Of a stretch of 37,242 nt of DNA, positions 10,454-32,399 are shown one piece after another. A model generated the notes under the pieces. The model saw nothing but the letters and a program-made list of their open reading frames with translations. It was not told where the DNA came from and made no database searches. Position numbers and translations under genes: made by a program. How positions within the stretch are numbered: the first letter of the stretch is position 1; each line of letters starts with the position of its first letter. This DNA comes from an uncultured Planctomycetaceae bacterium (lineage in GTDB: Bacteria > Planctomycetota > Planctomycetia > Planctomycetales > Planctomycetaceae). Where the stretch lies: the NCBI GenBank assembly GCA_903858815.1, contig CAIOKE010000344.1, positions 1-37,242 on the forward strand. The letters are read 5' to 3'.

Positions 10454-10660
10454 GGCTGATTGGCCTTGGACCGAGGCAGGACCGCTGAGTGCGGATCAGG
10501 GAGGGCGGGAGCAACCGCGGCGCGGTTGGTGCAGATTATCGACAGTTGACCGGACTGATCGCAATTGGAAACCGAGCCATTCGCGAACAATTTCCGGTCG
10601 TAATTGAGGCGACCACCCCGGGCGCTCACTCCACCACAGGACACCTGCGGGCAGTTCTGG

Positions 10661-10690
10661 CGCCCCGGAAGCCTCGCCCCGCCAAAGGGG
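10661..10690 (-). repeat. Degenerate copy of the extragenic repeat core
   Basis: Read on the minus strand it runs CCCCTTTGGCGGGGCGAGGC and continues TTCCGGGGCG. This aligns with the core shared by 3791-3822, 8733-8765 and 36470-36501, with a few substitutions. It lies in the 280-base gap between the DUF1501 gene and the phosphohexomutase-like gene. A GCCCCGC (10676-10682) / GCGGGGC (10696-10702) inverted repeat overlaps it and could form a hairpin just after the upstream gene. Confidence 0.5.
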
Positions 10691-10732
10691 CCGCAGCGGG
10701 GCAGGTGAATGCGGGGAGCTCTGCAGTCCACT

Positions 10733-12010: not shown

Positions 12011-12043
12011 GCCTCAACCCTCCAGGTCCGGCAGGCAGATACC

Positions 12044-14443
12044 TTAACCCCCGCCGGCTGGCGGTGCTGCCGCCTCTTCCCCCGCATCCTGTGGGTAGAC
12101 CAGCAGACGATCGTGACATAACAGCAGCAGATCAGCGCGGCCGTCACCCGTCACATCCACAATCAGACCTTCGCGAGGCTGTAAGCCTCGATCCGTAGCC
12201 TCCGACACCAACCGCTTTTCCTCAAACACTCGAAAACTGGTCGCCTCGCGCAATCCCTCACGTTCGTCAAACCGCAGAATCGCCACCCCGTTGATGCTGG
12301 TGTCAATTGCCACAAGGTCCATCACACCGTCCCCGTTGACATCACCCGCCAGCACATCCGCCGGATAAGCCTTCTCACGCTTTGATTCAAAACCATGCAT
12401 TTCCTTCAAAGTCACATCCGTGCGACCACTATACAGCACTCCGAGCTGCTCAGATCCCACCAACAGCAGATCTGTCCGGCCATCACCATTCAGGTCGGCA
12501 GTGATCGCCGAAGAAAACGGAGCAGCTCCCAGTTCCACTTCACGCCATGGTCGATAGACGTTGTCTTCCCGACGCAGAATCCGGGCTTTGCGAATACCCG
12601 CATCCAGCAGCACAACCTCGGCACCCTCCTGACCATCCAGATCCAGCGCGGCTACGCTCTCGATTCTGGCGGTTGCTTCACCCGCATTGATCTGATCCGA
12701 TACCTGCCAGCCACCGTCCTTCCATGACAACATGCGAGCGAACGAGTCGCGAGCGACCAGCAGGCCGGAACCACTGACGAAGACTCGCCCCGGAGAACTG
12801 ACCCCCGCCTCCAGCTGGCTGCTGCTGACCGCAGTCGACAAACTGCCGTTTTCTGCCTGCAGCAGCACATGAAATCCGGACTTCGCCTGACCGGCAGCAA
12901 TCGACAGCAGATCCTGTCGGCCGTCGGTGTTCACATCCATTGCAACCAGCCGCACACCACGCTGCCCCACTGCACCGGACAGCTCCAGCTTCGGATCTTC
13001 GGCCACGCGACTCCACTTACCGTCTGCATCCCGACGAAATCGCTGATACTCAAGCCTGGCCGAGTTCCCGGAACCCTGCGACAACCCCACGATCAACTGC
13101 GCCTGCCCGGCATGTGGCAACACCGCCAGAGCTGCCAGTTCCCAGCCGTCGGGCTTCCGCACGATCGCCTCAGGAAATGTCAGCCGACCGCTGTCAAAAC
13201 GACTGATCGCTACCACTCCTTCACTGCTGCTCAACAGCACAGCCTCTGTCCGACCATCTCCATCCAGATCGCCGGACGCCACCTCCGTAATCCCCAGCAG
13301 CGCTGGATACTGTTCGGCCGGACCCAGACCATCAATTCCATTCTGTCGATACAGCAGCAGCTGTGCCTGCTCAGGTTCATTCACCAGCACGTCCAGCAAC
13401 TTGTCGCCATCGAAATCCGCCACGGCGACTGCACGCTCACGTGATGATTCTGTACCGCCAATGCCGTATCGCAGCAGTCGCTCGGAGAGACTGCCAACCG
13501 ATTGCTGCGATGCCTCTGCCTGCAGCACACTGATCCGCCCGTTCCGCCCATCCACAGAAATCACTTCAGCCCCCGGACGACTGTCCAGTCCCGCAATTGT
13601 CACTGCCCGCGGCGTCTGCAGAGTAAACGAAACTTCCGGCCCAAGGCGACCACTGGCAGACTGCAGCCGCGCACACACAGAACGCCCAGTCTGCTCACCC
13701 GCCAGATAACACAGGTCCGTTCGGCCATCACCATTCAGATCGGCAGCCTGCAGCAATCCCTGACGACCAGATGTACTGATCAATGTCTCCGGAGCCCGCA
13801 GAGTGCCCTGCTCCGTCTGGAACAGCAGAAACATGCTGCTCTTCCCCGCAGCCGCCAGATCCAGCCGACCATCACCATTAAAATCACCCGCCGCCAGAAT
13901 TCCCGACACAGGATCCAGCCCCGGGAGACGCACGGTCCACTTTTTCGTCCAATCTTTACGACCCGCTTCCGGCTGATAATAGACCGCCAGCTGATCCGGT
14001 GGCCCAATCACGGCGAAGTCCAGCCGACCATCTGCGTCAAAGTCGCCGGTCTCCAGTTCAGCGATTGCTCGATCCATCGTAATCCGACGGTCCTCGAAAC
14101 GTTTGTCCGAAGACAACTCATTGACCTTCGAGCCGGCCTTTTCTGATCCTGTGCCCGGCGGACGCTGCAACAACAATCGAATCGAACTGGTGAAATTGTC
14201 CATGACCGCCACATCCGTCAGGCCATCGCCATTGAAATCTCCTGATTTCAAATGCTCGGCACGCTCATGCAGCTTCGTGATCTCGACACCCGTAAAACCG
14301 TAGTACTGCGCCAGTTCAGAATCGGACGCCGGTTCATCGCCCGCACCCTGGGCTGCAGGAGTCAACAGCAACAGAATTGCCACGATCGACCCGCACCAGT
14401 TCATCCGGTTCCATCTGCCCATTACACTCACCATTGTCAGCAC
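12044..14443 (-). CDS. Exported FG-GAP/VCBS repeat protein (beta-propeller)
   Basis: About 799 residues from a GTG at 14443. In-frame ATGs at 14434, 14422 and 14404 are alternatives, and the shorter forms give a cleaner signal peptide (WCGSIVAILLLLTPAAQGA). Around eleven calcium-binding FG-GAP/VCBS motifs run through the whole length, for example GDFNGDGLTDVAV, GDFDADGRLDFAV, ADLNGDGRTDLCY, GDLDGDGRTEAVL, ADLNGDGRTDLLL and GDVNGDGVMDLVA. They are spaced 50-80 residues apart, as expected for one or two seven-bladed propellers like integrin alpha heads. It is probably periplasmic or cell-surface and calcium dependent; binding partner unknown. It lies 69 bases after the large heme protein and 33 bases before the phosphohexomutase-like gene, so the three are likely one operon. 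Confidence 0.9.
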   Translation of the reverse strand: MLTMVSVMGRWNRMNWCGSIVAILLLLTPAAQGAGDEPASDSELAQYYGFTGVEITKLHERAEHLKSGDFNGDGLTDVAVMDNFTSSIRLLLQRPPGTGSEKAGSKVNELSSDKRFEDRRITMDRAIAELETGDFDADGRLDFAVIGPPDQLAVYYQPEAGRKDWTKKWTVRLPGLDPVSGILAAGDFNGDGRLDLAAAGKSSMFLLFQTEQGTLRAPETLISTSGRQGLLQAADLNGDGRTDLCYLAGEQTGRSVCARLQSASGRLGPEVSFTLQTPRAVTIAGLDSRPGAEVISVDGRNGRISVLQAEASQQSVGSLSERLLRYGIGGTESSRERAVAVADFDGDKLLDVLVNEPEQAQLLLYRQNGIDGLGPAEQYPALLGITEVASGDLDGDGRTEAVLLSSSEGVVAISRFDSGRLTFPEAIVRKPDGWELAALAVLPHAGQAQLIVGLSQGSGNSARLEYQRFRRDADGKWSRVAEDPKLELSGAVGQRGVRLVAMDVNTDGRQDLLSIAAGQAKSGFHVLLQAENGSLSTAVSSSQLEAGVSSPGRVFVSGSGLLVARDSFARMLSWKDGGWQVSDQINAGEATARIESVAALDLDGQEGAEVVLLDAGIRKARILRREDNVYRPWREVELGAAPFSSAITADLNGDGRTDLLLVGSEQLGVLYSGRTDVTLKEMHGFESKREKAYPADVLAGDVNGDGVMDLVAIDTSINGVAILRFDEREGLREATSFRVFEEKRLVSEATDRGLQPREGLIVDVTGDGRADLLLLCHDRLLVYPQDAGEEAAAPPAGGG

Positions 14444-14460
14444 TGCACCAGAAGAATTCC

Positions 14461-14488
14461 GGAATCGGTCCTGCAGCAGACCGATCCC
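14461..14488 (-). other. Intercistronic hairpin
   Basis: GGAATCGGTC (14461-14470) pairs with GACCGATCCC (14479-14488) over nine of ten positions around an eight-base loop. It lies between the heme-protein stop and the FG-GAP start. No T-run follows on the minus strand, so it is more likely an RNA-stabilising or attenuating structure within an operon than a full terminator. Confidence 0.45.
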
Positions 14489-14512
14489 GGGGTCATTGCC
14501 GTCAGCCCGCTT

Positions 14513-17500
14513 TCAGCGTTTGAACATGCCACTGTTCTTTTCGCCACGTGACAGCAGATAGGCCAGCAGATCCAGCACCTCATTCTCATTCAACGGCTTC
14601 AGGAGATCAGCCGGCATGATTGACACGCTGGATGGCTGAATCTCTTCCAGGTCGGACTTCAGAATCTCTGTAATCTTTGTCGGATCTTCAGGGTTCGTCA
14701 GCACGGTCACCGCTGTTTCCGTCTCGGCCACGACTCGCCCCGAAATCGCCAGACCAGCTTTTGTGACAACCGTACTGCCTTTGTACTGATCGCTGATCAC
14801 TTTGCTGGGATCCATGATTGCCTCCGTCAGATCCCTGACGTTGAATCGACCTGCCAACTGAGTCAGGTCCGGTCCCGTGGCACCACCATCGCCAGCAAAG
14901 CGATGGCAGATCACGCAGCGAGTGGCTGCAAACATCTTCTGCCCATTTTCGAAGTTCCGATCCTTCAGCCCCGTCTCTGCCAGGGCCCGCACGGAATCCA
15001 GTGTCCAGTCTTTGCCCGGCCCGGCGGGCTTTGGCAGCTCTGGCGGAGCATACGGCTTACGCGCCCCGGAAGCCTCAATCAGCAGACGCTCCTGCTCGGT
15101 CGCATTCAGAAACGCCTCGTTCTCAATATTTCGCAGAAAGCCACGGAAACTGGCCCCACCGGCCCACTTTGCAGCTCGCTCAAACCACCCGAAATACACC
15201 TTGCGGTGCTCCAGAGTCCACCCTTCCTTCGCATTCCGCAGCGAAAATGCATACCACATCTGCTGCTGATCAGGAGCATTCGTGATGGATGCCGCAATCG
15301 CACCACCATAACCACGATTACGAGCCAGCAGTTCCTGCATATCGTCCGTCACCGTCGGCCGCGATTCCGCCGCCAGCAGCCCGACAGCTTTGCCCACCAC
15401 GGTCGGTGACTTCAGATAGATCAATACCTGAATCAGTTCCCGATCCATGTCCGCGTCTCCTGTCGGAAACAGCCCATCCAGACGGTCCAGATACCCCTGA
15501 CGCTCAGCTGTCTCAGGCGGCCCCAGACGCAGGAAGACCAGACTGATCACTCGCAGATACTCCAGCTTCTGCTCACGATTCAGCGAGGCAAAATCCTGGC
15601 CCTGCATCAGTGCCGTGCTTAAACGACGCAGACTTTCTTCCATGGATGCCACTGCAGTCTCAGAAACATCGTCCGTTTTTGTCAGGCTTGACAGCGGAGC
15701 CTTAACAAGTGCCATGACAACCGCCGTTCGATCCGTCACATTCTCGCTGTTGCTCAGATCCGCCTGATCCAGAGACCGCATCAAGTCCGGGAACAGCTGC
15801 GAATGATAAAACGCATTGTGCATGGCCATCCGCAGGAAACGGTCCGTCGTACCACGAACAGCGGTCAGCTGCTGCAGCAGCGTTGCAGAATCCACTCGCG
15901 AGTTCGCTGTTGCTCCCGTACGTCCTGCATGGAACGATTCAAACAGACGACGCAATGAACGTGGGCCGGCTTCCCGTGAGTCCTTCAGTTGTGCTGGTTC
16001 AGTCGACTCTTCACCCGTGTAGATCACCCGGAACAGTTCAGACTGCGTCCCGCGGCCACCAATGGAAAAATACAGTGAACCATCAGGACCGGCCACCACA
16101 TCCGTCAGGGGCAGCGGAGTCCGCGACAGAAACTCCTCCTTCACCGCCACATAACTGCTCTGCCGAGGCTCCAGATGGATCGCATACATCGTACCGAATG
16201 TCCAGTCACAGATGTATAACGCCTTCTGATACTTCGCCGGGAAACGGCAGCCGTAACCAAAGTCCACTCCCACAGGTGAGCCTGGCCCGATATTGACCAT
16301 CTGCGGCAAACTGTCCGGGTACCACGTCGGCCACTTGCCCGAACCACTGCGCCAGCCAAACTCACTGCCACTGGTCGCATGGACGACTCGCGTCGGACGG
16401 TACCAGGGTGATCCCACATCCCACTCCATGTCCGCATCGTATGCAAACAGTTCGCCGTCCGCGTTGAATGCCATGTCGTACGGGTTGCGATAGCCCACAG
16501 ACCAGATGTCCCACGTCTTTCCATCCGCATCTGTGCTGGCAATCCAGCCTCCCGGAGCCATGATGCCGCGAGCATGCCCGTTGGCATCCCACATGCGAGG
16601 CAGCAGATGATCTTCAGACCAGTTGGTCGGAATGCGACTGGTAAAATCCCGATTTGTCAGCTCCTCACCCTCGTCAAATGGTGGCTTCGTATGATTTCCA
16701 CAGATCACGAAAATCCGCTGGCCATCCGGAGACAAACGCAGGGCATGCGGTCCATGCTCGCCACCACCACGGAATTCCTTCAGCTTCACGCACTGATCAA
16801 ACTGATCGTCTCCGTCTGTATCTCGTGCTCGATACAGCCCACTGCCCGGTCCGCCGTTGATGGAGAAATACAGCGAGTCAAAAGCCCACAGCATTCCCTG
16901 AGCACCTGTGGGCTGGACTTCGCACTTCGAGAAGTCCAGACGCTCCACGCGAGTTTCACCACCCCGCTCGCCTGCCACGGGCAGTGTGATTCGGCAAATA
17001 CCCTTATCGCCCTGATCACTGGCCAGCAGTCTCCCCTTGCCGTCAAACGCAATGCAGACCCATGAGCCCAGTTCGTCCTTCGGGACCGTGAATAACTTTT
17101 CAACAGCAAAGCCCGGCAACAATTCAAAAACGCCGGCGGGAACACGCGACACGATTGCCTCTCGCGAGAACACATCATTCCACGGCCCGTCGCCATAGCG
17201 CCCCCGGACCTGAACCGGATCACCACCATCAGCTCCGCGACGATCTGCATAGGTCCAAGTCTCATCCGAAACCGCCCACGTCAGTTTTCCATCTGCACCG
17301 CGCATCGCCAGCTTCAGCACGAAGCCAGCTGCACCGCCCTGATTTTCAACCTCCGCCTCAATCACATTCAGTCCCGGCTGAAGTTGACCGGCAACGCTGG
17401 CGTCAGATGGTTCCTGCCACTCAGATCCGCCCCCCACTCGCCTGCCGTTTACGAACACAGCGCACACGTTATCGCAGGAGGCTTTCAGGCGGGCCGCAGA

Positions 17501-17752
17501 GGGGACCGCATCCAGCTTTACGGTCGTTCGCAGCACATATTTCGCGTCGTTATTCGGGCCCCAGATCCATGCAGCACGCGGCCCACCGGAAAAGTCGGCG
17601 TCGGCAATCACAGCAGCCGGTTGCTGCACCTGCTGACCGGCCGATCCATGCAGTTGCGCCGGTTGAAGCTCAGCCTTCTGACTGAGCACCTGCTGAGCCT
17701 GCACGACGGAAACAGAGACGAGGCAACAGCCAAAAAACAGTCCACGCAGCAT
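14513..17752 (-). CDS. Large PVC-type c-type heme protein (membrane-bound dehydrogenase domain, HEAT, cytochrome c)
   Basis: 1079 residues from the ATG at 17752 (AGGG upstream; the TTG at 17758 is less likely). Residues 1-20 form a signal peptide. An N-terminal beta domain (about 60-200) with AWIWGPNNDAKYVLR and VFVNGRRVGG resembles a galactose-binding-like fold. A six-bladed propeller of the membrane-bound-dehydrogenase type follows (PGFAVEKLFTVP, GEHGPHALRLSPDGQRIFV, GYRNPYDMAFNADGELFAYD, PLTDVVAGPDGSLYFS). A helical HEAT-like stretch leads to the heme-binding domain with CVICH near residue 946, and MPADLLKPLNENEVLDLLAYL is the usual C-terminus, whose methionine may be the axial ligand. It probably performs periplasmic oxidation of a sugar or related substrate with electron transfer to a cytochrome; substrate unknown. 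First gene of the cluster. Confidence 0.93.
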   Translation of the reverse strand: MLRGLFFGCCLVSVSVVQAQQVLSQKAELQPAQLHGSAGQQVQQPAAVIADADFSGGPRAAWIWGPNNDAKYVLRTTVKLDAVPSAARLKASCDNVCAVFVNGRRVGGGSEWQEPSDASVAGQLQPGLNVIEAEVENQGGAAGFVLKLAMRGADGKLTWAVSDETWTYADRRGADGGDPVQVRGRYGDGPWNDVFSREAIVSRVPAGVFELLPGFAVEKLFTVPKDELGSWVCIAFDGKGRLLASDQGDKGICRITLPVAGERGGETRVERLDFSKCEVQPTGAQGMLWAFDSLYFSINGGPGSGLYRARDTDGDDQFDQCVKLKEFRGGGEHGPHALRLSPDGQRIFVICGNHTKPPFDEGEELTNRDFTSRIPTNWSEDHLLPRMWDANGHARGIMAPGGWIASTDADGKTWDIWSVGYRNPYDMAFNADGELFAYDADMEWDVGSPWYRPTRVVHATSGSEFGWRSGSGKWPTWYPDSLPQMVNIGPGSPVGVDFGYGCRFPAKYQKALYICDWTFGTMYAIHLEPRQSSYVAVKEEFLSRTPLPLTDVVAGPDGSLYFSIGGRGTQSELFRVIYTGEESTEPAQLKDSREAGPRSLRRLFESFHAGRTGATANSRVDSATLLQQLTAVRGTTDRFLRMAMHNAFYHSQLFPDLMRSLDQADLSNSENVTDRTAVVMALVKAPLSSLTKTDDVSETAVASMEESLRRLSTALMQGQDFASLNREQKLEYLRVISLVFLRLGPPETAERQGYLDRLDGLFPTGDADMDRELIQVLIYLKSPTVVGKAVGLLAAESRPTVTDDMQELLARNRGYGGAIAASITNAPDQQQMWYAFSLRNAKEGWTLEHRKVYFGWFERAAKWAGGASFRGFLRNIENEAFLNATEQERLLIEASGARKPYAPPELPKPAGPGKDWTLDSVRALAETGLKDRNFENGQKMFAATRCVICHRFAGDGGATGPDLTQLAGRFNVRDLTEAIMDPSKVISDQYKGSTVVTKAGLAISGRVVAETETAVTVLTNPEDPTKITEILKSDLEEIQPSSVSIMPADLLKPLNENEVLDLLAYLLSRGEKNSGMFKR

Positions 17753-18177
17753 AATCAAGACCCTGATTCAGCACGCCATTGGTGGGAAATTCAGCAATTC
17801 TGAGGAGACCGGCAGTGCCCCGGAACTGCGCCGTCAGTATCGCAGGAAACTCGCGGATTGAAAACCGGCTGGCCACGGAAAATCCATGGAACCGCAGGCC
17901 ATGCACAAGCCATTCCCTGCCTCACACCCCCAACCCTTACCAACAACTTTCGCAGGATTTCGGATTTCTCGCAAAAATCGGCCGAAGCCGTTCAATCCTG
18001 CCACGCAGTCCTGCCGAATTTGCCTGTACCGGTCGCCTGTCATCCGCCTGCAGGGTGCCCCCACGCACTCAGCGCCCCGGAAACAGACGCGCCGGCCTGG
18101 TGCGACTCGGTGCTCGACCAGTAACTTTTGACCTCATGGACGAGCTTCTGCAGGATCCTGTTCCGGATCAGAAGTTC
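17753..18177. other. Divergent intergenic region
   Basis: This ~425-base region separates the heme-protein gene (minus) from the secreted hydrolase (plus). The plus-strand frame of the hydrolase is open back to 17779, but that stretch encodes arginine/proline-rich sequence lacking any domain, and I see no ribosome-binding site in it. Promoters for both genes should lie here; none could be identified with confidence. Confidence 0.45.
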
Positions 18178-19254
18178 ATGACCCCGTTCGGTGTTCGTGC
18201 TGCCCGTCTCTGCAGTCGGCTGATCAGCCTGCTGTTGCTGACTGTCACGCTGCTGACAGCGGGGCGTTCGCGCGCCGATGAACCCAGACAACCGGTCCCT
18301 GAGACACCACACCACAGCACCAGCACGGCCACCCGAAACCATTCGCTGGCACGTTACTGGATTGTCAGTACCGAAGATTCACCTCAATCCTTTGATGACT
18401 CACTGCCACGCTTCTCTGCCCGAGTCCAGTGTCGCCACGCAGACGGATCGGCACACCAGAGTACGCTCGAAAGTCTGACACAGTCGCTGCAGCCCGACGC
18501 GCCGCTGGTCATCATGGTGCATGGCAGCTTTATGGATTCCCCCAGCGTAGGGCCTGAATCCCTGCGTACCTGGAACTGGCTGAAACACGGAGCCGGTGGA
18601 AAACCCTTCGACTTCATCTACTTTCGCTGGCCCAGTTACCGCAGCCCCTCACTGATGATCAACATCGATGTGGCGGTTCTGGGGCGACGTGCCAGCCGCA
18701 ATGGCTTCTATCTCGCCGGACTGATCAAGTCGCTGCCCGCAGCCAGATCCATCGGGTTGATCGGACACAGCCACGGAACGCGAGTCATCTCATCGGCACT
18801 GCATCTGATGGCCGGTGGACAGGTGGAAGAGATCGGCTGTCCTGAACTCAGTTGCAGCAACCATCATATTCGCACCGTGTTTGCCGCTTCAGCCGTTGAT
18901 CACGACTGGCTGGGGCACGGGGAACGCTTTGAACGAGCCCTCTGCAGCACCGAAGCGCTGCTGAATCTGCAGAACCCCCGCGATCCGGCATTGATCATCT
19001 ATCCCCTGCGGCGTATCGGCTCACGCCGCGCACTGGGCCACACGGGATTCACCACCAACGACATTGACCGGCTGGGCTCACACGCCGCCAAAATCACGGA
19101 TGTCAACGTTGGCTCCACTGTCGGCTGCAAACACATGTGGCCCGCATGGGTCGAACAGCCGGAAGTCGCCCACGCAGTGGCCCCGTGGCTGTTTTTTCCG
19201 GAGGCGAAATCCCCTCAGAAAACTGCAAATCATCCTACCGTCTCTCCGCCCTGA
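18178..19254 (+). CDS. Secreted alpha/beta hydrolase
   Basis: 358 residues from the ATG at 18178, chosen because it begins a clean signal peptide (MTPFGVRAARLCSRL, then ISLLLLTVTLLTAGRSRA). An upstream in-frame ATG at 18136 would add 14 residues and bury it. VIMVHGSF near 112-118 gives the oxyanion-side HG motif. IGHSHGTR around Ser198 is the GxSxG nucleophile elbow, and VGCKHMWPAW near the C-terminus probably supplies the catalytic histidine. The body resembles DUF900/lipase-like esterases that act on lipids or acylated surface molecules, but no precise family was recognised. Its 3' end overlaps that of the convergent TPR gene by 20 bases. Activity is probable; substrate unknown. Confidence 0.8.
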   Translation: MTPFGVRAARLCSRLISLLLLTVTLLTAGRSRADEPRQPVPETPHHSTSTATRNHSLARYWIVSTEDSPQSFDDSLPRFSARVQCRHADGSAHQSTLESLTQSLQPDAPLVIMVHGSFMDSPSVGPESLRTWNWLKHGAGGKPFDFIYFRWPSYRSPSLMINIDVAVLGRRASRNGFYLAGLIKSLPAARSIGLIGHSHGTRVISSALHLMAGGQVEEIGCPELSCSNHHIRTVFAASAVDHDWLGHGERFERALCSTEALLNLQNPRDPALIIYPLRRIGSRRALGHTGFTTNDIDRLGSHAAKITDVNVGSTVGCKHMWPAWVEQPEVAHAVAPWLFFPEAKSPQKTANHPTVSPP

Positions 19255-22186
19255 TTTTTAATGCTTTCTGCAGATGCTCTTCCGCCCCCGCATCATCGCC
19301 CTGGGCTCGGCAGACTCGTGCCAGCAATTCGAAAGTCTCAGGAACGTCCGGACGCAATTCCCGAGCCCGCTGCAGATCTCGCAGCGCCTGCGGCAGACTG
19401 CCCGTGGCAAGAAACACTTCTGCGCGCGTGGTCAGCAGATCATGATTGTCGGGCAGCAACTGCACCGCCGCAGTGGCCAGACGCAGGGCTTCAGACTGGT
19501 GCTCTGGATCTCCCGTGCGAATCAGAGCCAGTGCCAGATTATTCATCAGGAATGGATCCGGCTTTCTGGAGGCCGTGACTGCCAGCCGCAGCCACTGCAC
19601 GGCCTGATCCGTGCGTTGATTCTGCAAGGCTCGCGTCCCGATGACGGACAGTACTCGCGTCGCATCACCGGTGGCTTGCAGTCGTTGCAGAGTTTCACTG
19701 GCCACCTGCCCGGTTTGTCCCCCGCGCAGTGACATTAAGTAAAGCCTGTCCGCCACTCGCATAATCACTGACGAGGATTTGAGGCTTGTGTCAAGGAGTT
19801 CCGTCAGTCGCTCAGATGCAGACTCCGGGAACTGCGGTGTCCAGGTGTCCTGCCGTTTCGAAAAGGCACCGGGATATCCCGTGAGCACATCAAACTCCTG
19901 CAGCGCGATTCTGGCCTGCGCAGTGTTCAGCTGTTCTGTATCCGACGCAGTGTTCACCTCCAGCTGCAGGCTACTGCTGGCCTGAGAGAACTCGCGGGCC
20001 ACACTGAAGTACTCGGCCGCCTGGATTCTGGCGGACAGCTCTGCGGTCTGCAGCAGTGGTTGTGTGATTTCGGTCACCGCCTGCGCTGCTTCAGACTGTC
20101 GGCCTGCAGCCACCAGCGCTGCCAGCCAGATCATGGAATCGAACCGATCGGGCTGTCGCAGTCGCTGATATGTTTCAGCGGCCTGCGTGTAGTTCCCCAG
20201 AGCATATGCCAGATGGACGACACACCTGGGGATTGTTTCAGACTTGTCGGGCGTTAATCCGGCCGATTGTGCGAGCCAGTACTGCAGAGCCGCTTCGGCG
20301 GACCCCGTAAACGGCGCCCCCTTCAGGTGCAGCAGTGATGCCAGCAGCGGAGCCTGGGGGTTCTGCGGATCCAGCTGCAGTGCCTCGCGCACGGCCTGCG
20401 GACCAGCATCGCCCTCCATACGATCTGCCTGCAGCAATTGCTGGACTCGCTGCAGACGCAGCTCGGCGGTGGCCTTTCGCAGTGCAGGCGAGGGGTCCAG
20501 CTGCAATCCTGTGTCAAGCAGCGATTCGGCCGCCGACGCCTCGCCGGTTAATGCCAGCAGATATGACAACCGCAGACGCAGTTCCGAATCTTTCGGTTTC
20601 TGCTTCAACTTTGATTCAAGACTGACAAGTCTGCGCTCCACGAGCACATCATGCGGCTGCAGTCGGCCATTGCGTGCCAGCTGATAGATCAGCGCATCGG
20701 CGTATTCTGCATCTGCTTCGGCAGCCTGCCGCAGATGCCGTTCAGCCAGTCCGGTCTCGTCGACAGTCAGATACAGCTGCGATAGCATGCGATGTGCCTC
20801 GGCAGTGGTGTGTCCCGTTTCCAGTGCTCGCTGCAGGCGAGTGATCAGCTGCTCCGTCGTCTGTTTTTGAAACGGCTGATTTGAGAGTGCATTTCGCACG
20901 ATCCACAGGTGAGCCGGTCCGTAACCTCCTGTGTCCAGACTTGCCAGCCGTTCAATGGCCTCCCAACCTGCCTGCTGACTACGATGCTGCCAGAGAAACT
21001 CGGCGACCTGCATCCTTCGTGCAAGGTCATTCGGCTGCAACCCGGCCAGCGCCTGGAGGCACAATTGCTGAGAATCCAGATCACCCTGCTGCTCAGCCAG
21101 CAGTAATCGATTGGTGTAGAGACTGCCGACCGTCAGGACATCGCCGGCAATACGCTGCTCGACCAGCAGAGCAGCCAGCAGCAGGGTGCTGCCGGGGATG
21201 GCGAAGTACAGCATGGAGACTTCGCGAGACAGGGCCCAGTCCACCATGAACGATTGCAGAAAGCGTCCGATCGGCAGACGATTTCCGTCTGAGGATCGCA
21301 GCTGGATCTCGGACCACTTTTCAGGCAGCACACCACTCACCTCACGTCCCCACAGGCGATTGAGCGGATTACCGCTGATGTGCGAAGTGGCCGGTCTGTC
21401 GCTTTGCAGCACGGGTGCAGTCAGAAACAGAACGATATACTGCATGGACCACAGCAGCAGGCATCCAGGCAGCAGCATCAGCAAAGGCCAGCCCTGGACA
21501 GGGACCAGCTGACTGCCATCCGAAATATCCAGAATGGCAAACAGGCAGGCGCAGAAGTATACAGGCAGCGAACAGATGACGGCGAGTGGCAGCGTCAGCA
21601 GGACCTGCGGCAGCGTTCGGCCGGCACGGAACAACAGCAGAGTTGTCAGCACCAGTACTCCGGTCAGCCCGAATGGTGACTGCAGGATCCCACTCAGATC
21701 CACGCTTGCAGACAATGTGCCTGCCGTGGTGCCCTCAGTAAAATGCCAGTACTGCAGGGAACTGGCGAGCGTGCTGGAGTGCAGCAGCAGTCGCTGGGAC
21801 AACTGCTGCATCGTGAAAACGGCTGGCATCGGCGGCAGGCCTGTGAACATCACCAGCAACAGCAGCACGCGACCGCGGTTCGGCAATCCAGCCAGCAGCG
21901 TCAGCAGGCAGACCCCGACTGCGAACCCAGCAGCTGCCAGCCAGTCCGAATCAAGAACTGCCATAGCCGGCAGCAGCAGTACAGTGGCCAGCAGCAGCAG
22001 CGTACTGGGCAGCCTCCACGTCCAGACGGCATGGACTACTGGCCGCAGTTTCCAGCACAGCACAACGATCAGTACAGCAGCGGGCCAGTTCTGAGGCAGC
22101 AGCAGGCTGCGGGCCAGAGATCCACCGTTCAGAATCAGCGGCAGGACGGGCAGCAGCAGGCTGACGATTCTGAGGATCTGAAGCAT
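19235..22186 (-). CDS. Multi-pass membrane protein with exosortase-like N-domain and C-terminal TPR array (paralogue 2)
   Basis: 983 residues from the ATG at 22186; no strong ribosome-binding site. Residues 1-270 contain about eight hydrophobic segments. Within them, LSQRLLLHSSTLASSLQYWH (about 129-148), then VDLSGILQSPFGLTGVL (162-178), resembles the exosortase/EpsH pattern of a short helix followed by the ACSG active-site turn. Here S-P-F-G replaces A-C-S-G, so the catalytic cysteine is absent. Another membrane segment lies near 335. From about 380 to the end are TPR-like helices, clearest near the C-terminus (DPFLMNNLALALIRTGD, DNHDLLTTRAEVFLATGSLP, LRPDVPETFELLARVCRAQG). It is similar over its full length to the next gene upstream (DRLYLMSL/DRLYLLSL, GTRALQ in both), and 57 bases separate them, so they are tandem duplicates, probably co-transcribed. 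The exosortase link is an inference. Confidence 0.8.
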   Translation of the reverse strand: MLQILRIVSLLLPVLPLILNGGSLARSLLLPQNWPAAVLIVVLCWKLRPVVHAVWTWRLPSTLLLLATVLLLPAMAVLDSDWLAAAGFAVGVCLLTLLAGLPNRGRVLLLLVMFTGLPPMPAVFTMQQLSQRLLLHSSTLASSLQYWHFTEGTTAGTLSASVDLSGILQSPFGLTGVLVLTTLLLFRAGRTLPQVLLTLPLAVICSLPVYFCACLFAILDISDGSQLVPVQGWPLLMLLPGCLLLWSMQYIVLFLTAPVLQSDRPATSHISGNPLNRLWGREVSGVLPEKWSEIQLRSSDGNRLPIGRFLQSFMVDWALSREVSMLYFAIPGSTLLLAALLVEQRIAGDVLTVGSLYTNRLLLAEQQGDLDSQQLCLQALAGLQPNDLARRMQVAEFLWQHRSQQAGWEAIERLASLDTGGYGPAHLWIVRNALSNQPFQKQTTEQLITRLQRALETGHTTAEAHRMLSQLYLTVDETGLAERHLRQAAEADAEYADALIYQLARNGRLQPHDVLVERRLVSLESKLKQKPKDSELRLRLSYLLALTGEASAAESLLDTGLQLDPSPALRKATAELRLQRVQQLLQADRMEGDAGPQAVREALQLDPQNPQAPLLASLLHLKGAPFTGSAEAALQYWLAQSAGLTPDKSETIPRCVVHLAYALGNYTQAAETYQRLRQPDRFDSMIWLAALVAAGRQSEAAQAVTEITQPLLQTAELSARIQAAEYFSVAREFSQASSSLQLEVNTASDTEQLNTAQARIALQEFDVLTGYPGAFSKRQDTWTPQFPESASERLTELLDTSLKSSSVIMRVADRLYLMSLRGGQTGQVASETLQRLQATGDATRVLSVIGTRALQNQRTDQAVQWLRLAVTASRKPDPFLMNNLALALIRTGDPEHQSEALRLATAAVQLLPDNHDLLTTRAEVFLATGSLPQALRDLQRARELRPDVPETFELLARVCRAQGDDAGAEEHLQKALKIRAERR

Positions 22187-22243
22187 AGTCGGGGCTCATA
22201 CCGTGAGTGTTGTCATCTCGAAGATGGCCACGTAGATCGTCCA

Positions 22244-25204
22244 TCAGGGATCCGTCGGCTTCAGGGACTGGCTGCGTCGCTGGTACTCTTCAGCACCGGC
22301 TGTGTCTCCCAGTTCCGTCGCGGCCTGGGCCAGCAGTTGCAGCGTTTCTGAATAATCCGGTCGCAGCAGCAGGGCTGCTTTCAGATCCTGTTCCGCCAGC
22401 TTTGCATTTTTCATTGCGAGGTAGACTTCACCTCGAGTCGCCAGTGCGACGTGATTCTCCGGCATCAGCTGCAGAGCTTTGTTGGCCAGCTCAAGAGCCT
22501 CTGGCAGACGCGCTGACTGGCCCGATCTGACAATCGCAATGGCCAGATTGTTCTGCACAATCGGGTTGGGGTCTCGAGCAGAAGCCTGGGCCATTTCCAG
22601 CCAGCGAATTGCCGGTTCGAACTGATTGTGCTGCAGTGCCCGCGTTCCCAGCGTCACCAGAATCATCATGGCATCTGCCGCGGTGGCACGATATTCCAAC
22701 AGAGCCTCATCCGCGGCCTGCCCCGCGATTCCACCTGCCAGCGACAGCAGATACAGTCGATCAGCAGCACGGCCGGCAAGTTGTGGTGACTGTATTGCAG
22801 CGACAATCAGCCTGCGAATCCGCGGGATGGCCTCGTCGGAAATCTGTGGACGCCACGCCTGCTCAGACGTTCTGAAATAACCGGGATAACCGAGCACATG
22901 ATCCAGTTCATGCAGCGCAACCCATGCACTTCCGTACTGCAGCAGTTTCCGCTGGCTGGTGTTCATCGTCTCAGACGGGACACTCCTGAGGCATGCTTCA
23001 GCATCTGCAAAAGCCGCCACCTGACAGAACAGATGGGCAGCGTTCAGTCGGGCTGGCAGACTTCCATCAGCCAGCAGAGGTGCTGCGGTGGACTTTGCTT
23101 TGTCCAGCGCGTCAGCCTGCCGCCCCGCCTGCATCAACGCGGCGAGGATGATGATCGTGTCATCAGCAGGCGACTTTGACATCTGAGCAAACAATTCTGC
23201 CGCATCGGCCGGACGACCGGCGGCAAACGCCAGCATTGCCTGCCTGCGCTGAGCCTCAGGATCTTTTGTTGTCTCTGCCAGCGTTTTCCAGTGCTGCTCG
23301 GCCGCCATCAGATATTCACCGAATTCTGCACCTTCAAGCCGCAGCAGCGCTGCCAGTGCAGGCGCCTGTGCGCTGGTCGGATCCAGTGTCAGAGCCTCGC
23401 GGACTGCCAGCAGGCTGCCGTCACCGATCATCGATGTGCCTGACAGCTCTGCACGGACACCAGCCAGTCGCTGCTCGGCAAGTGCCTTCCGCAGGTCAGG
23501 TGAATCACGCAGACTGATTCCAGCCCTCAGTATCTGCTCAGCCTCCGCACCTCGATCGGTCAGCCACAGCAGCCTCGCCAGTTTGATTCGGAGTGCTTCA
23601 TCGCCGGGTTGCTGCTGCAGGCCATCTGACAGCTGCTTCACTCGACTGCCGAGCAGCTGCGGATCGGGCAGCGGACGTCCGCTGCTGCGACAGTAGCTTA
23701 CAAGGTCATCCACGTACTGAGGATCCGCGTTCGCAGCTTTTTGCAGCTGAGTTTCCCCCATCTTCTGCTCACCACCGCGAAGATAAAGCCGCGCGAGCAG
23801 CGCGTGAGCCTCTGCGTTTTCACCAGTGGACTGCAGCACCCGAAGCAGGTACTGAATCATTTGCTCATCCGGCAATCGCCGAAATGGTTCAGCCGACATC
23901 GAGTTTCGAACAATCCAGAGCTGAGCATCGGCCGCACCGAGCACCGACTGCTGGGCAATCGACTCGTATTCGGCCCAGCCCGCCTGCTGCGATCGCTTGC
24001 TCCAGAGGAATTCGGCCAGCTGCAGCCGCCGTTGTGGATCCGAAGGGAACTGCGAGATCAGAGCACGCAGCAGCAGTTCCTGACGATCCGTATCCTGCTG
24101 CTGAATCGCCTGCTGCAGCTGTTGCTGATACTGGATCGCTACAGCATCACGACGGGTGGACAGCGTCGAGTTGAGCAGCGGAAGACCCACCAGCACCAGC
24201 ATGGCGGGCAGCGCTTGAGGCAATCGCCACGTGCGTCGCGAAAAAAACCAGTCGAGTGCAAAAGTCGTCAATACCGCATCGGATGACAACCCAAATCCTT
24301 CATCGGCCAGCAGGCGAATTTCCCCAACCTGCTGCAACGGGTAACCAGAGACTACGTGATCCCACAAACGGGTAAACGCATTCCCAGTGGTGGCACCACC
24401 ACGATCACCTCCTTCGGCAGCGATGGCATCAGTCAGCAGCAGCAGCAACTGCTCGGCAGACAATAACAGCAGAGCCACGATCGGAAACAACAGCACGGGA
24501 TACAGCCAGACCGGTGTCCACTGCCAGCCGGCGTTCATCAGAACGATCGCGAGGACGGAACTGGCAAAGTTGTGCAGGACCGCAAGTGGCAGGGCCAGCA
24601 GCATCAGCAGCAGAATCTGGATCAGTGTGGCCTTACGGTAAAGCAGCCAGCACCCCAGCAGCAGGAACAGGCCGGAGATTCCAAGCGGAGACTGAAAGAT
24701 CCGAGACAGGTCGACTGTCCCACTCGACGTTGTGATCAGGGACCCGGTGCGAGCGTTCCAGATACCCAGCAGGCTGGCCACTGTGCTGGAGTGACTGCAG
24801 AGACGGTCAGACACCAGCGAATTCAGCGGACTGCTGTAAAGCGGAGGCAGTCCGGCACCCGTCAGCAACAGGACCAGCAGCAGCCTGATGCGACGTTTTG
24901 GAGCCCTTGCACCGGACACCAGAGCCAGCGCGGTGCCCAACGACATGGCGGCAAACCAGCCCGAAGCGCGCAACAGAGCCAGACTGAGCAGAATAAAGTA
25001 ACCGCAGGACAGCAGAATGGTCACGCGATCCCGTGGCACTGGCCGCAGCCAAAGCGACCGCAACAGCCATAGCGTCAGCCCAACCGCACCTGCCAGATGC
25101 AGCCAGTGCTGCGGCCGCAACAGCTGTTCTGGCAAATCAGCAGATGGGACAAAACACGGTAACAGAATGAGCAGGACAAGACCCGCCCTGATGAGCCACG
25201 ACAC
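22244..25204 (-). CDS. Multi-pass membrane protein with exosortase-like N-domain and C-terminal TPR array (paralogue 1)
   Basis: 986 residues from a GTG at 25204 (GGGAG upstream). It has the same architecture as its downstream neighbour. About eight membrane segments cover residues 1-260, one more lies near 325-340, and TPR units follow from about 375 to the end (NPIVQNNLAIAIVRSGQ, ENHVALATRGEVYLAMKNAK, LRPDYSETLQLLAQAATELG). LVSDRLCSHSSTVASLLGIW (130-149), then a GxL turn, then VDLSRIFQSPLGISGLFLLL (164-183) lines up with the exosortase core. There the active site normally reads ACSGISSLF; here it is SPLGISGLF, with Pro173 in place of the cysteine. LPLAVLHNF (206-213) resembles the conserved xxxN segment after it. 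I infer a non-catalytic exosortase-like membrane anchor for a periplasmic or cytoplasmic TPR scaffold. Function unknown. Confidence 0.8.
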   Translation of the reverse strand: MSWLIRAGLVLLILLPCFVPSADLPEQLLRPQHWLHLAGAVGLTLWLLRSLWLRPVPRDRVTILLSCGYFILLSLALLRASGWFAAMSLGTALALVSGARAPKRRIRLLLVLLLTGAGLPPLYSSPLNSLVSDRLCSHSSTVASLLGIWNARTGSLITTSSGTVDLSRIFQSPLGISGLFLLLGCWLLYRKATLIQILLLMLLALPLAVLHNFASSVLAIVLMNAGWQWTPVWLYPVLLFPIVALLLLSAEQLLLLLTDAIAAEGGDRGGATTGNAFTRLWDHVVSGYPLQQVGEIRLLADEGFGLSSDAVLTTFALDWFFSRRTWRLPQALPAMLVLVGLPLLNSTLSTRRDAVAIQYQQQLQQAIQQQDTDRQELLLRALISQFPSDPQRRLQLAEFLWSKRSQQAGWAEYESIAQQSVLGAADAQLWIVRNSMSAEPFRRLPDEQMIQYLLRVLQSTGENAEAHALLARLYLRGGEQKMGETQLQKAANADPQYVDDLVSYCRSSGRPLPDPQLLGSRVKQLSDGLQQQPGDEALRIKLARLLWLTDRGAEAEQILRAGISLRDSPDLRKALAEQRLAGVRAELSGTSMIGDGSLLAVREALTLDPTSAQAPALAALLRLEGAEFGEYLMAAEQHWKTLAETTKDPEAQRRQAMLAFAAGRPADAAELFAQMSKSPADDTIIILAALMQAGRQADALDKAKSTAAPLLADGSLPARLNAAHLFCQVAAFADAEACLRSVPSETMNTSQRKLLQYGSAWVALHELDHVLGYPGYFRTSEQAWRPQISDEAIPRIRRLIVAAIQSPQLAGRAADRLYLLSLAGGIAGQAADEALLEYRATAADAMMILVTLGTRALQHNQFEPAIRWLEMAQASARDPNPIVQNNLAIAIVRSGQSARLPEALELANKALQLMPENHVALATRGEVYLAMKNAKLAEQDLKAALLLRPDYSETLQLLAQAATELGDTAGAEEYQRRSQSLKPTDP

Positions 25205-25648: not shown

Positions 25649-26083
25649 ATGGAGAGCGTCGAATTTCTACTGGCTGTAAAACGCAGGCGATACGATCCGT
25701 TTCAGACATTGGACTCGTGGCTGCCACTGCTGGTTGCAGCGGTTATTCTGATTCTGCTGATTTGGGCGATTTTGAAGTTTCTTTCGAAAATGCACGAAGA
25801 CGTAGATCCTGCCGAGGCAGACCGTGAGATGCTGCAGGCGCTGCGTGAATTGCGGCGTGAAGGTGACTTGACCGAAGATGAATTCCGATCCATCAGGGGG
25901 AAACTGTCGAACCGTTTGAACACTCTGCCGACTGCAGACCAACCCGCAGAAAAAAATCGGGGAAAATCAGCGGAAAATGCCGCAGAAAGCAGTCCACAGT
26001 CGCTTGTGAACAAGCTGTCGCCAGAACTCAAAAACACCGAACTGATCTCTGACTCAAAGGAAGAATCAGTTCAGCCGGAATAA
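25649..26083 (+). CDS. Small membrane protein with SHOCT-like domain
   Basis: 144 residues from the ATG at 25649 (AAGGAA nine bases upstream). One strong transmembrane helix lies at about 25-47 (WLPLLVAAVILILLIWAIL). It is followed by a SHOCT-like short helical module at about 60-90 (MLQALRELRREGDLTEDEFR, then a short helix), and the last ~50 residues are charged and disordered (PAEKNRGKSAENAAE). The SHOCT module is a small C-terminal helix pair found on many membrane proteins and is thought to mediate oligomerisation; no enzymatic function is visible. The gene sits behind a perfect sigma-54 promoter, so its expression should be conditional. Comparable small proteins are common in planctomycetes. 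The same frame remains open for 109 codons after the TAA but without a start codon signal. Confidence 0.75.
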   Translation: MESVEFLLAVKRRRYDPFQTLDSWLPLLVAAVILILLIWAILKFLSKMHEDVDPAEADREMLQALRELRREGDLTEDEFRSIRGKLSNRLNTLPTADQPAEKNRGKSAENAAESSPQSLVNKLSPELKNTELISDSKEESVQPE

Positions 26084-26363: not shown

Positions 26364-26489
26364 CACCACGGAGCGAAGGTTCCAGAGATCTGTGCACTCG
26401 GGCGTATCAGTAGCTCAAAGACTCCTGCCTCCAGAGTCATGCAGAGCGGCTGAATTGGCAGAGTGACTGAAGCATTCAAAGGCAAAACG

Positions 26490-27770
26490 ATGGTATCGGG
26501 TAAGGATTTCGGTTCCGGCAAAACGTCGCAGCAGGGCAAACGCAACGCCAACTGCTCATTCTGCCGCAAGAACTATCGCGAAGTCGGACCATTGGTGGAA
26601 GGTCCGGAAGACGTTTATATCTGCGGCGAATGCATCGAACTGTGCCAGTCAATTCTGGACCAGGAACGTCGCCGTCGCGGAGCTTCCAAGAAGCTGTTCA
26701 ACCGTGTTCCGACGCCTCGCGAAATCGTACGTGAACTGGATCAGTACGTAATCGGTCAGGCACGTTCCAAGAAACTGCTGTCCGTTGCTGTCCACAGTCA
26801 CTACAAGCGACTGACTCACAACCTGGAAGTGGGTACCGAAGAGGTTGAGATTGAGAAGTCGAACATTCTGCTGATCGGTCCTACCGGCTCGGGCAAAACC
26901 CTGCTCGCCAAAACTCTGGCTCGCTCACTGCAGGTGCCATTCGCGATCGGTGATGCCACGACTCTGACTGAAGCCGGCTATGTCGGTGAGGACGTTGAAA
27001 ACCTGTTGCTGAAACTGCTGCATGCGGCCGACTTCGATATCGAAGCTGCTCAGCGCGGGATTATCTTCATCGATGAGATTGACAAGATTGGCAAGACCAG
27101 CCAGAACGTCAGTATCACTCGTGACGTGTCCGGTGAAGGTGTCCAGCAGGCTCTGCTGAAAATGCTGGAAGGTACGGTCGCCAACGTTCCGCCGCAGGGC
27201 GGTCGCAAGCATCCGGAACAGCAGTACATTCAGATCGATACCACGAATATTCTGTTCATCTGTGGTGGGACATTTGTCGGTCTGGAAGACATCATCTCCC
27301 GCAGGCTGGGGCGTAAGGTCATCGGTTTTGGCACGGCCGCCGATGCTCCTGATGAGCGCAGCCGGGAAGATCTGCTGGCACAGGCGACTGTTGAAGACGT
27401 CATGGAATTTGGTCTGATCCCGGAACTGCTGGGACGTCTGCCCGTCATCGGCACACTTGCTCCGCTGGACGAAGATGCCCTGATGCAGGTCCTGACCGAA
27501 CCCCGCAATGCACTGGTTCGCCAGTATCGGCGGATGTTCGAGATGGAAGAATGCGAGCTGGACTTCACTCCGGGCGCACTGCGTGAGATTGCGAAACTGG
27601 CCCGCACTCGTGAAACCGGGGCCCGCGGTCTGCGATCCATCCTTGAGAACGTGATGTTCGACCTGATGTTTGATCTGCCGGAACTGGAGCGTGGTCAGAA
27701 ATTTGTCGTCACCGAAGAAATGGTCCGCGGGGATCTGAAGATTCCACGTCGCGATTCGGCTGCTGCCTGA
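26490..27770 (+). CDS. clpX: ATP-dependent Clp protease ATP-binding subunit ClpX
   Basis: 426 residues from the ATG at 26490, preferred over the in-frame GTG at 26463 because AAAGGC lies just upstream. The N-terminal zinc-binding domain has CSFC and CGECIELC in the C-x2-C...C-x2-C pattern. The AAA+ core contains [10 protein letters not shown] (Walker A), [16 protein letters not shown] (pore loop 1), [12 protein letters not shown] (Walker B), and the sensor-2 region [36 protein letters not shown] is also characteristic; the IGF tripeptide (VIGFGTA) used to dock on ClpP is present. ClpX unfolds tagged substrates and feeds them to ClpP in the cytoplasm. clpP is not adjacent here, unlike in many bacteria. 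A strong terminator follows the stop codon. Confidence 0.98.
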
Positions 27771-30998: not shown

Positions 30999-32399
30999 TC
31001 ACATATGCTTGTAAACCGACTCGAAGTCGATCTCATAGCGCTTCATCTTCTTGTAGAGCGTCGTGCGATTGATGCCCAGAGCGCGAGCTGTCTTCTGGCG
31101 ATTCCAGCCAGTGCTTTCCAGAGCCTGAATGATCAGCTGTCGTTCCGGCTGAGTCAGAGCCACTTTCAGTGACGCATTGCCCAGATGAGCGGTGACATTG
31201 GCACGAGTTTCTGCGGAAGCAAACAGCTTTTCGGGCAGGTCGGTCGCAGTAATCACCCCGTTCCGGCACAGCACCACCGCTCGCTCAATCACATTCACCA
31301 GCTCACGCACATTACCTGGCCAGTGATAGTGCTGCAGTACCTGCATGGCAGCTTCTTCAATCTGAGTAATCCGACGCCCCGTCTGCTCACTGAAGATCTG
31401 CAGATAGTGATTGGCCAGCAGTGGGATATCACCGAGGCGATCCCGCAGAGCCGGCTGGGTCAGAGTAATCACGTTGATACGGTAATACAGGTCTTCTCGG
31501 AAGCGGCCTTCCCGGACCGCCTCTTCCAGATCCACATTGGTGGCCAGAACCAGTCGGACGTCGACCTTATGAGTGACGTTGCCACCAACCGGCTCAAACT
31601 CACGATCCTGCAGCACTCGCAGCAGCTTGACCTGCAGTGCAGGCGATGCTGTCGCGATTTCGTCCAGAAACAGAGTACCTCCGTCGGCCTGCAGAAAGCG
31701 TCCGATCTTGTCATGAGTCGCTCCGGTGAACGCACCGGCCACATGCCCGAACAGCTCACTTTCCAGCAGCGTTTCCGGCAGTGCCCCGCAGGCCACTTCC
31801 ACAAACGGCTTGTCGCGGCGATTGCTGAGATGATGCAGAGCCCGAGCCGTCATGGTCTTGCCCGTACCACTCTCACCCAGAATCAATACGGTTGTCTTGG
31901 TATCCGCTACGCTCTCCATAAGCTCGAACATGCGGACCATTTTGTAGTCCTTGCCGATCACGCTGGAGAGTCCATAGCGTTCGGACAGCTGTGCCTTCAG
32001 CTTGCGATTCTCTTCCACAATCTGACGCTGGCCAATGGCCCGCTCGATGGAAAACCGCAGCTCCTCGTCAATGACCGGCTTCGTCAGATAGTCAAAGGCA
32101 CCCATCCGGATGGCTTCGACCGCACTCTCAATCGTTCCAAATCCCGTCAGCAGGATCACGGCAGTCTCAGGAGCATGTTCGCGAGCCCACTGCAGCAGAT
32201 GAAATCCATCCTTGTCCGGCAGATTCACATCACAGATGACAACCTCGAATGGAAATTCCTCCATTCGTTCAAGCGCTTCGAGACAGGTCGATGCGGTTTC
32301 GGTCCGATGCCCCAGACTACGCAGATAATCGGCCATGGCATTCTGAATATGGCGATCATCGTCAACAACAAGCAGTGAACCGGATGAATTACGAGCCAT
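30999..32399 (-). CDS. NtrC-family sigma-54-dependent response regulator
   Basis: 466 residues from the ATG at 32399. The N-terminal receiver domain (about 1-120) has the acidic cluster DDD at 13-15, the phosphorylation site Asp57 in [13 protein letters not shown], and the TGF/K switch residues (ILLTGFG, YLTKP). The central AAA+ domain has LGESGTGKT (Walker A), GAFTGA (sigma-54 contact loop), [10 protein letters not shown] (Walker B) and [10 protein letters not shown]. The C-terminal Fis-type helix-turn-helix is [20 protein letters not shown]. Such proteins bind upstream enhancers and open sigma-54 promoters when phosphorylated. No histidine kinase is encoded nearby, so it is an orphan regulator. 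A structured region lies about 100 bases upstream of its start. Confidence 0.97.

Follow-up and report, generated by a model that had tools for sequence, protein, structure and literature searches.

The window analysed here, contig C344 of genome G000 (GenBank CAIOKE010000344.1, assembly GCA_903858815.1; 6.39 Mb in 373 contigs), is a 37,242-nucleotide stretch of DNA from an uncultured bacterium of the Planctomycetaceae and carries on its minus strand two adjacent genes for large membrane proteins. In both proteins a multi-helix N-terminal domain is followed by one hydrophobic stretch and then by matches to tetratricopeptide repeats (TPR), which form an array of about 640 residues. The comparisons described below show that the pair descends from a module composed of an exosortase and a TPR array, that its exosortase domains have lost the catalytic triad, and that the genes are conserved under selection in genomes that also encode intact modules. 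A domain is called dead or non-intact when at least one of the catalytic Cys, Arg and His is missing from its alignment column; G, C and L numbers refer to genomes, contigs and loci. The features of the pair are the following:

22244..25204, minus strand: gene 1, catalytically dead exosortase-TPR fusion of 986 residues, GTG start (open reading frame; orthologues L058:1533-4526 and L067:1450-4413)
24314..25204, minus strand: exosortase-derived membrane domain of gene 1, residues ~1-297 (profile-profile match, AlphaFold2, catalytic columns)
22247..24157, minus strand: TPR region of gene 1, residues ~350-986 (hydropathy, Pfam TPR matches, co-linearity with intact fusions)
19235..22186, minus strand: gene 2, dead exosortase-TPR fusion of 983 residues, ATG start (open reading frame; orthologues L058:4705-7722 and L067:1-1362)
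21296..22186, minus strand: exosortase-derived membrane domain of gene 2, residues ~1-297 (alignment and clade-only profile)
19238..21154, minus strand: TPR region of gene 2, residues ~345-983 (Pfam and BLASTP co-linearity with intact fusions)

Gene 2 lies downstream of gene 1 at a spacing of 57 bases, and hydropathy places the one extra hydrophobic stretch of gene 1 (residues ~331-349) immediately ahead of its TPR region. Reading frames, hydropathy and Pfam matches agree with a preliminary description of this DNA, made from its letters alone, in which two reading frames with N-terminal membrane helices and TPR arrays had been recognised. Orthologous pairs occupy the equivalent place in the sister genomes G007 (L058) and G010 (L067), with the same neighbour genes alongside; in L067 a contig end truncates the second gene of the pair.

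Searched against Pfam and NCBIfam, the two full-length proteins match only TPR and other helical-repeat models. None of the exosortase models PF09721, TIGR02602 and TIGR04178 matches either protein above threshold, the best value (E 1.2) being that of TIGR04178 for the N-terminal domain of gene 1, and the N-terminal domain of gene 2 searched alone matches no curated model. Within the same genome, a search with the gene 1 domain retrieves, besides the pair, a short protein on contig C243 (E 1.5e-4), which scores above the Pfam exosortase cut-off (30 bits) and yet has no active-site cysteine. When 37 non-intact domains are compared with 36 intact ones, profile against profile, they align over 299 columns (query of 349 residues) at a probability of 100 and E 5.1e-43. 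A profile made from nothing but the six members of the pair's own clade recovers intact exosortases among 2332 open reading frames from E 7.4e-10. With this profile 28 of the 54 rows labelled intact, 3 of them duplicating a place, rank ahead of the first non-family match (E 0.0092) and the remaining ones score worse than that or are unlisted, the labels in this search having been set by text pattern (the L050/L132 place was labelled pseudo) and being superseded by the table of 96 domains used below. The resemblance to exosortases, as gauged by these searches, exceeds chance.

In AlphaFold2 models (mean pLDDT 79.7 for the gene 1 domain and 90.0 for the intact domain on C173), the main helices of the dead and the intact domain come in matching order, three short strands precede the active-site helix in both, and each model has one small helix absent from the other. 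The predicted secondary-structure order thus tracks the intact exosortase, and gives no sign of the unrelated fold against which the preliminary description had wanted its assignment checked. At E ≤0.001, Foldseek returned no match for the dead domain in the PDB and a viral library, nor for the intact domain in the PDB, and an intact relative had no match among PDB sequences at E 1, which indicates only that those libraries hold no recognisable relative. Taken with the co-linearity of the TPR arrays, the profiles and models indicate that the N-terminal domain of both proteins descends from an exosortase domain whose helix order has been kept, as had been suspected from the start.

Intact exosortases fused to a like array are encoded in four sister genomes (L098, L099, L101 and L103; 1045-1055 residues), and in BLASTP comparisons their C-terminal regions are co-linear with both window proteins (27-31 % identity over 630-703 residues, E 1e-58 to 1.6e-46). 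L102, from a different genus, is likewise an intact exosortase-TPR fusion (1099 residues), the array of which resembles those of the window proteins more weakly (23-26 %, E 8e-30 and 5e-17). At 112.8 bits, the L101 protein exceeds the exosortase cut-off of 105.55. Used as a query, its array retrieves six regions of the window genome at 138.6-457.6 bits, every one of them an exosortase module, and the next match, at 38.5 bits, adjoins the other exosortase of this genome on C324. In most cases a short exosortase-like gene has the array as its immediate neighbour, as in the split module L054, so that the idea of short exosortases having lost their TPR part proved wrong; at loci such as L105 and L106 a short exosortase-like gene is present and no array was seen. 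By their sequences, exosortase and TPR array evidently form a module, fused or split, which suggests that the two work jointly.

The 2006 family description (PMC1569441) names three exosortase motifs, Cys-x-Gly, Asn-x-x-Arg and His-x-x-x-Gly, and in ArtA the residues Cys173, Arg214 and Arg253 are critical by mutation (PMC9263693). In an alignment of 96 domains, the Cys, Arg and His columns are occupied by F170, S215 and a gap in gene 1 and by L168, A213 and a gap in gene 2. The loss of the nucleophile inferred in the preliminary description is thereby borne out. However, that description had placed the lost cysteine at the proline of SPLG in one protein and SPFG in the other, which the alignment rejects, since the true Cys column (F170/L168) lies three residues earlier. 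It had also taken the segment LPLAVLHNF for the next exosortase motif; the Asn of Asn-x-x-Arg is indeed kept there in gene 1, but the Arg column holds S215, and in gene 2 these two columns hold Y210 and A213, respectively. In five full-length members no single cysteine is invariant, so a conserved cysteine elsewhere in the domain, also raised beforehand, is not what they show. What the earlier account of nucleophile loss had overlooked is that Arg and His are missing as well, that intact exosortase-TPR fusions exist, and that the pair belongs to a wider dead family.

The 96 domains are a sample drawn in by a profile (A3) of 16 relatives, mostly non-intact members, part of the matches of the family scan having been fetched. 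Repeated places (L036, L038, L039, L041, L044, L047, L050) and matches spanning no more than 150 profile positions (L122 and L132 included) are omitted, and the L050/L132 place, apparently an intact exosortase, is absent from the sample. The triad is intact in 51 of these 96 domains and not in 45. Among the 45, the Cys is kept in 14, the Arg of Asn-x-x-Arg in 3 and the His in 2. The non-catalytic motifs that dead domains keep are SxW, LPP, RR and NPxxxxWNRxVS: in the same 45 domains the W of SxW is found in 40, the RR position in 39, and the Asn and Trp of NPxxxxWN in 36 and 39, respectively. None of the 14 domains that keep the Cys has Arg or His in the aligned column, and in those domains Arg and His may therefore have gone first. 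An Arg stands in the His column of L111, and in L072 and L088 an Arg is found nearby.

Counting fused and split forms together, the window genome holds six exosortase-TPR modules, of which one is intact and five are dead. The intact module is split (C173, exosortase 83851-84711, array 81528-83462); the dead ones, all of them open frames, are C173:117685-121014, one module each on C243 and C207, and genes 1 and 2 on C344. On C173 the intact and the dead module are about 33 kb apart. The 45 non-intact domains of the sample come from 11 genomes, and an intact domain is present in all 11. The preliminary description had asked for genomes encoding this pair together with an active exosortase of XrtU type; no model bearing the name XrtU turned up in the model searches. 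Within the genus, non-intact domains occur in 9 of 18 genomes, and 9/9 also have an intact one, while in another genus G071 and G073 each contain one non-intact fusion with the Cys kept, plus an intact enzyme. Of 170 family genomes scanned, 47 contain matches to the A3 profile. Among 397 genomes of the class, matches of at least 255 bits to the non-intact profile come from those two genera only, the next match having 201 bits and class-wide matches of lower score not being sorted individually into intact and non-intact. Because at most 13 candidates per genome were scored in the family scan and at most 5 in the class scan, absence from a genome is not proven by these counts. Mutual exclusion of intact fusions and dead modules in the genus is not claimed (an intact fusion is present in 0/9 pseudo-bearing vs 4/9 other genomes, Fisher p 0.08, the genomes being non-independent).

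An unrooted tree of 90 domains, calculated with the catalytic columns removed and with L052, L117-L120 and L129 also dropped, contains one branch that parts intact from non-intact domains with a support of 93 (below the program's star), and the non-intact side has long branches. A single origin of the non-intact domains is likely on these sequence data. A ClpX tree built from 14 genomes places all seven of the pseudo-bearing ones on the same side of a weakly supported branch (59/31).

Selection on the pair can be gauged from the G007 and G010 orthologues, for which dN/dS (Nei-Gojobori counts, own script) is 0.219 for gene 1 and 0.182 for gene 2 (over 411 shared codons). The corresponding values are 0.059 for the intact exosortase and 0.069 for its TPR gene, and 0.139 and 0.117 for another dead split module. 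Relative to the window, the orthologues in G007 and G010 are 47-48 % identical, with dN/dS 0.31-0.33. Both frames of nearly 1000 codons are open in the window genome and in G007; in G010 one is whole and one is cut by the contig end. Purifying selection acts on the pair's orthologues; it is real but weaker than that on the intact enzyme. With the catalytic residues lost and the domain under selection, the two proteins qualify as pseudoenzymes. In another pair of orthologous dead fusions, L055 (G000) and L068 (G010), dS is 0.67 in the membrane domain vs 0.16 in the TPR part, a contrast suggestive of gene conversion or recombination within the latter.

PEP-CTERM-like sorting signals, the presence of which had been put forward as a check on the exosortase assignment, are indeed found: 12 matches above the cut-off in the window genome vs none in 14 control genomes, and matches in 15 of the 18 genomes of the genus. 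G012 has neither an intact fusion nor a PEP-CTERM match. On C324 (L057), the window genome also encodes a second intact exosortase, which belongs to a different subfamily; two TPR genes flank it and four PEP-CTERM matches above the cut-off lie on the same contig, as in a more classical sorting locus; this exosortase may serve those proteins.

We propose, at a probability of roughly 45 %, that the two window proteins, as non-catalytic exosortase paralogues, serve exosortase sorting as adaptors or gatekeepers in the membrane; the role suggested in the preliminary description, that of a scaffold for sorting or export, is plausible in the same sense. The dead domain would still recognise either the intact enzyme itself or the sorting helix at a client's C-terminus, and the TPR array, in the periplasm, would bind the folded part of the client or other envelope factors. 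Each dead module could thus be a client-specific adaptor or gatekeeper that either delivers its clients to the intact exosortase or holds them back, and the tandem arrangement suggests that the two proteins may act as a heterodimer. A periplasmic position of the array is hinted at by hydropathy and topology, in that arginines directly precede the last helix. Inactive rhomboids working with active proteases may serve as a model for such a dead module: in the iRhoms, which are inactive rhomboid pseudoproteases, a dead membrane protease is reportedly kept as partner or regulator of active ones, perhaps by the same logic. To our knowledge the iRhom family is unrelated to exosortases, and the parallel is one of analogy only.

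A partnership with a live system would also be in keeping with the proximity of dead and intact copies in G003, where a single open reading frame separates a dead from an intact module in divergent orientation (L084, C76) and where about 2.4 kb lie between a further dead module and a further intact domain (L085, C454). A precedent for the role of the TPR part is the TPR protein PrsT, proposed as an adaptor of the PEP-CTERM system (PMC1569441); in one species, a prsT mutant fails to form flocs (PMC9850573). More tentatively still, one exosortase-TPR enzyme might have given rise in this planctomycete lineage to one catalytic and about five dead, client-specific receptor modules, with the pair as a tandem receptor. 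If true, surface sorting would be carried out by one enzyme plus a panel of pseudo-exosortase adaptors, and the dead copies beside a live exosortase would provide a natural separation of recognition from cleavage, which bears on how exosortases choose their clients and on what their TPR protein does.

Several observations weigh against an adaptor role in sorting. The pair was detected in three genomes only, and no intact exosortase lies within the window at its locus. Between G007 and G010, the membrane domain of gene 1 has a dN/dS of 0.340, which is higher than that of the TPR part (0.169) and about six times that of the intact enzyme (0.059), so the constraint on that domain is moderate. In the last 40 residues of the genes around 16 loci, no clear sorting tail was found beside the modules. 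G015 (89 % complete) and G017 (61 %) have intact fusions and no PEP-CTERM match, which tells against any simple connection with PEP-CTERM, and the module may be there for a different sorting tag. Both of these genomes, together with G004 and G011, carry intact fusions and no dead module was found in them. Conversely, G002 has dead modules, and an intact module of the same type was not found there, only one of another subfamily. Finally, a periplasmic array is weakly indicated, since the loop before the last helix, taken whole, contains 6 K/R vs 9 D/E in gene 1, where it is not net positive, and 8 vs 7 in gene 2.

Some of these points suit the main rival explanation, namely exaptation, in which the former exosortase domain would be a mere membrane anchor or have some other role in the membrane, with the TPR array active in a process unconnected with C-terminal sorting. 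Besides the higher dN/dS of the membrane domain and the two genomes that combine intact fusions with an absence of PEP-CTERM matches, the diversity of the modules' neighbours speaks for it. Moreover, an FG-GAP/UnbV_ASPIC gene lies near 7 of 41 dead-domain loci (L053, L056, L060, L061, L069, L082, L092; 3 of the 7 confirmed by Pfam) vs none of 47 intact-domain loci, a possible sign of different clients or a different process, although the count was obtained with a profile made from the same seven genes (E 1e-10) and with unequal flank lengths, and the seven genes fall into about three ortholog groups and are thus not independent. However, from a domain that merely anchors the protein one would not expect retention of its full extent, helix order and NPxxxxWNRxVS motif among domains with mostly only ~12-45 % identity to that of gene 1, and the same TPR array remains paired with intact enzymes. 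We regard exaptation as somewhat unlikely.

Much less probable is an alternative catalysis, in which the domain would still be an enzyme and use another nucleophile, for example a Ser or Thr two residues past the lost Cys. All six members of the clade have Ser or Thr at that column ([ST]P), but the Arg and His of the triad are gone, the Asn of the Arg motif is gone in five of the six, and the column varies among the 45 non-intact members (G in 17, S in 14, N in 5, others in the rest); ArtA, for its part, requires Cys, Arg and Arg (PMC9263693). Decay of relaxed duplicates on their way out, to which the loss of all catalytic residues and a dN/dS above that of the intact enzyme might point, is highly improbable given purifying selection on the orthologues (dN/dS 0.31-0.33 relative to the window and 0.18-0.22 between G007 and G010, in support of the function rather than decay envisaged in the preliminary description), the nearly 1000 codons kept open in the window genome and G007, and the open frames of all five dead modules of the window genome.

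As proposed membrane adaptors derived from exosortases, the two proteins may be set beside several known systems. With the exosortase EpsH (PF09721 / TIGR02602) they have in common a homologous membrane domain, the predicted order of main helices and short strands and the non-catalytic motifs; unlike it, they are without Cys-x-Gly, Asn-x-x-Arg and the His, are unmatched by the curated models, and are fused to TPR. The closest counterparts are the intact fusions (L098, L099, L101, L103) and split modules such as L054, both halves of which are homologous to those of the pair, the Cys, Arg and His being kept there and lost in the pair. PrsT (TIGR02917), a large TPR protein beside the exosortase in the XrtA/PEP-CTERM system, is the best NCBIfam model for both proteins, but their scores of 51.8 and 55.2 bits fall short of its cut-off (312.2), and their array follows an exosortase-like domain. 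The archaeosortase ArtA is an exosortase-like archaeal enzyme (PMC11980579); unlike the pair it is active, and it is not known to carry a TPR array. PrsT is a lipoprotein (PMC1569441), whereas sequence and helix predictions give the pair a multi-helix N-terminal domain and no lipoprotein signal. Among the open-licence PMC papers listed, judged by titles and the beginnings of abstracts, none was found to describe exosortases without catalytic residues or their fusion to TPR arrays. The exosortase family and pseudoenzymes as such are already known; dead exosortases and exosortase-TPR fusions appear to be newly described.

The genes adjoining the pair, by which its locus can be followed, are these:

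25649..26083, plus strand: conserved neighbour of 144 residues without a Pfam match, locus marker (70-72 % identity in L058 and L067)
26463..27770, plus strand: clpX-like gene, conserved neighbour (translation; 96-97 % identity in L067 and in L058, first 127 residues)
17779..19254, plus strand: alpha/beta-hydrolase-like open reading frame, convergent with gene 2 (68 % identity in L058; DUF900 at E 0.0071, below the cut-off)

The second of these, which we take to be clpX, is not thought to be a component of the exosortase-TPR system. Elsewhere in the window, positions 30999-32399 encode a sigma-54 response regulator, which was rejected as a PrsR on account of its score (405 bits against a cut-off of 502.6 for TIGR02915, the PEP-CTERM regulator model). 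A single stretch at 9062-17758 contains genes for a DUF1501 protein, an FG-GAP repeat protein and a putative heme-binding CxxCH protein, a combination typical of planctomycetes, and a beta-lactamase-family protein carrying EF-hand motifs is encoded at 175-1791.

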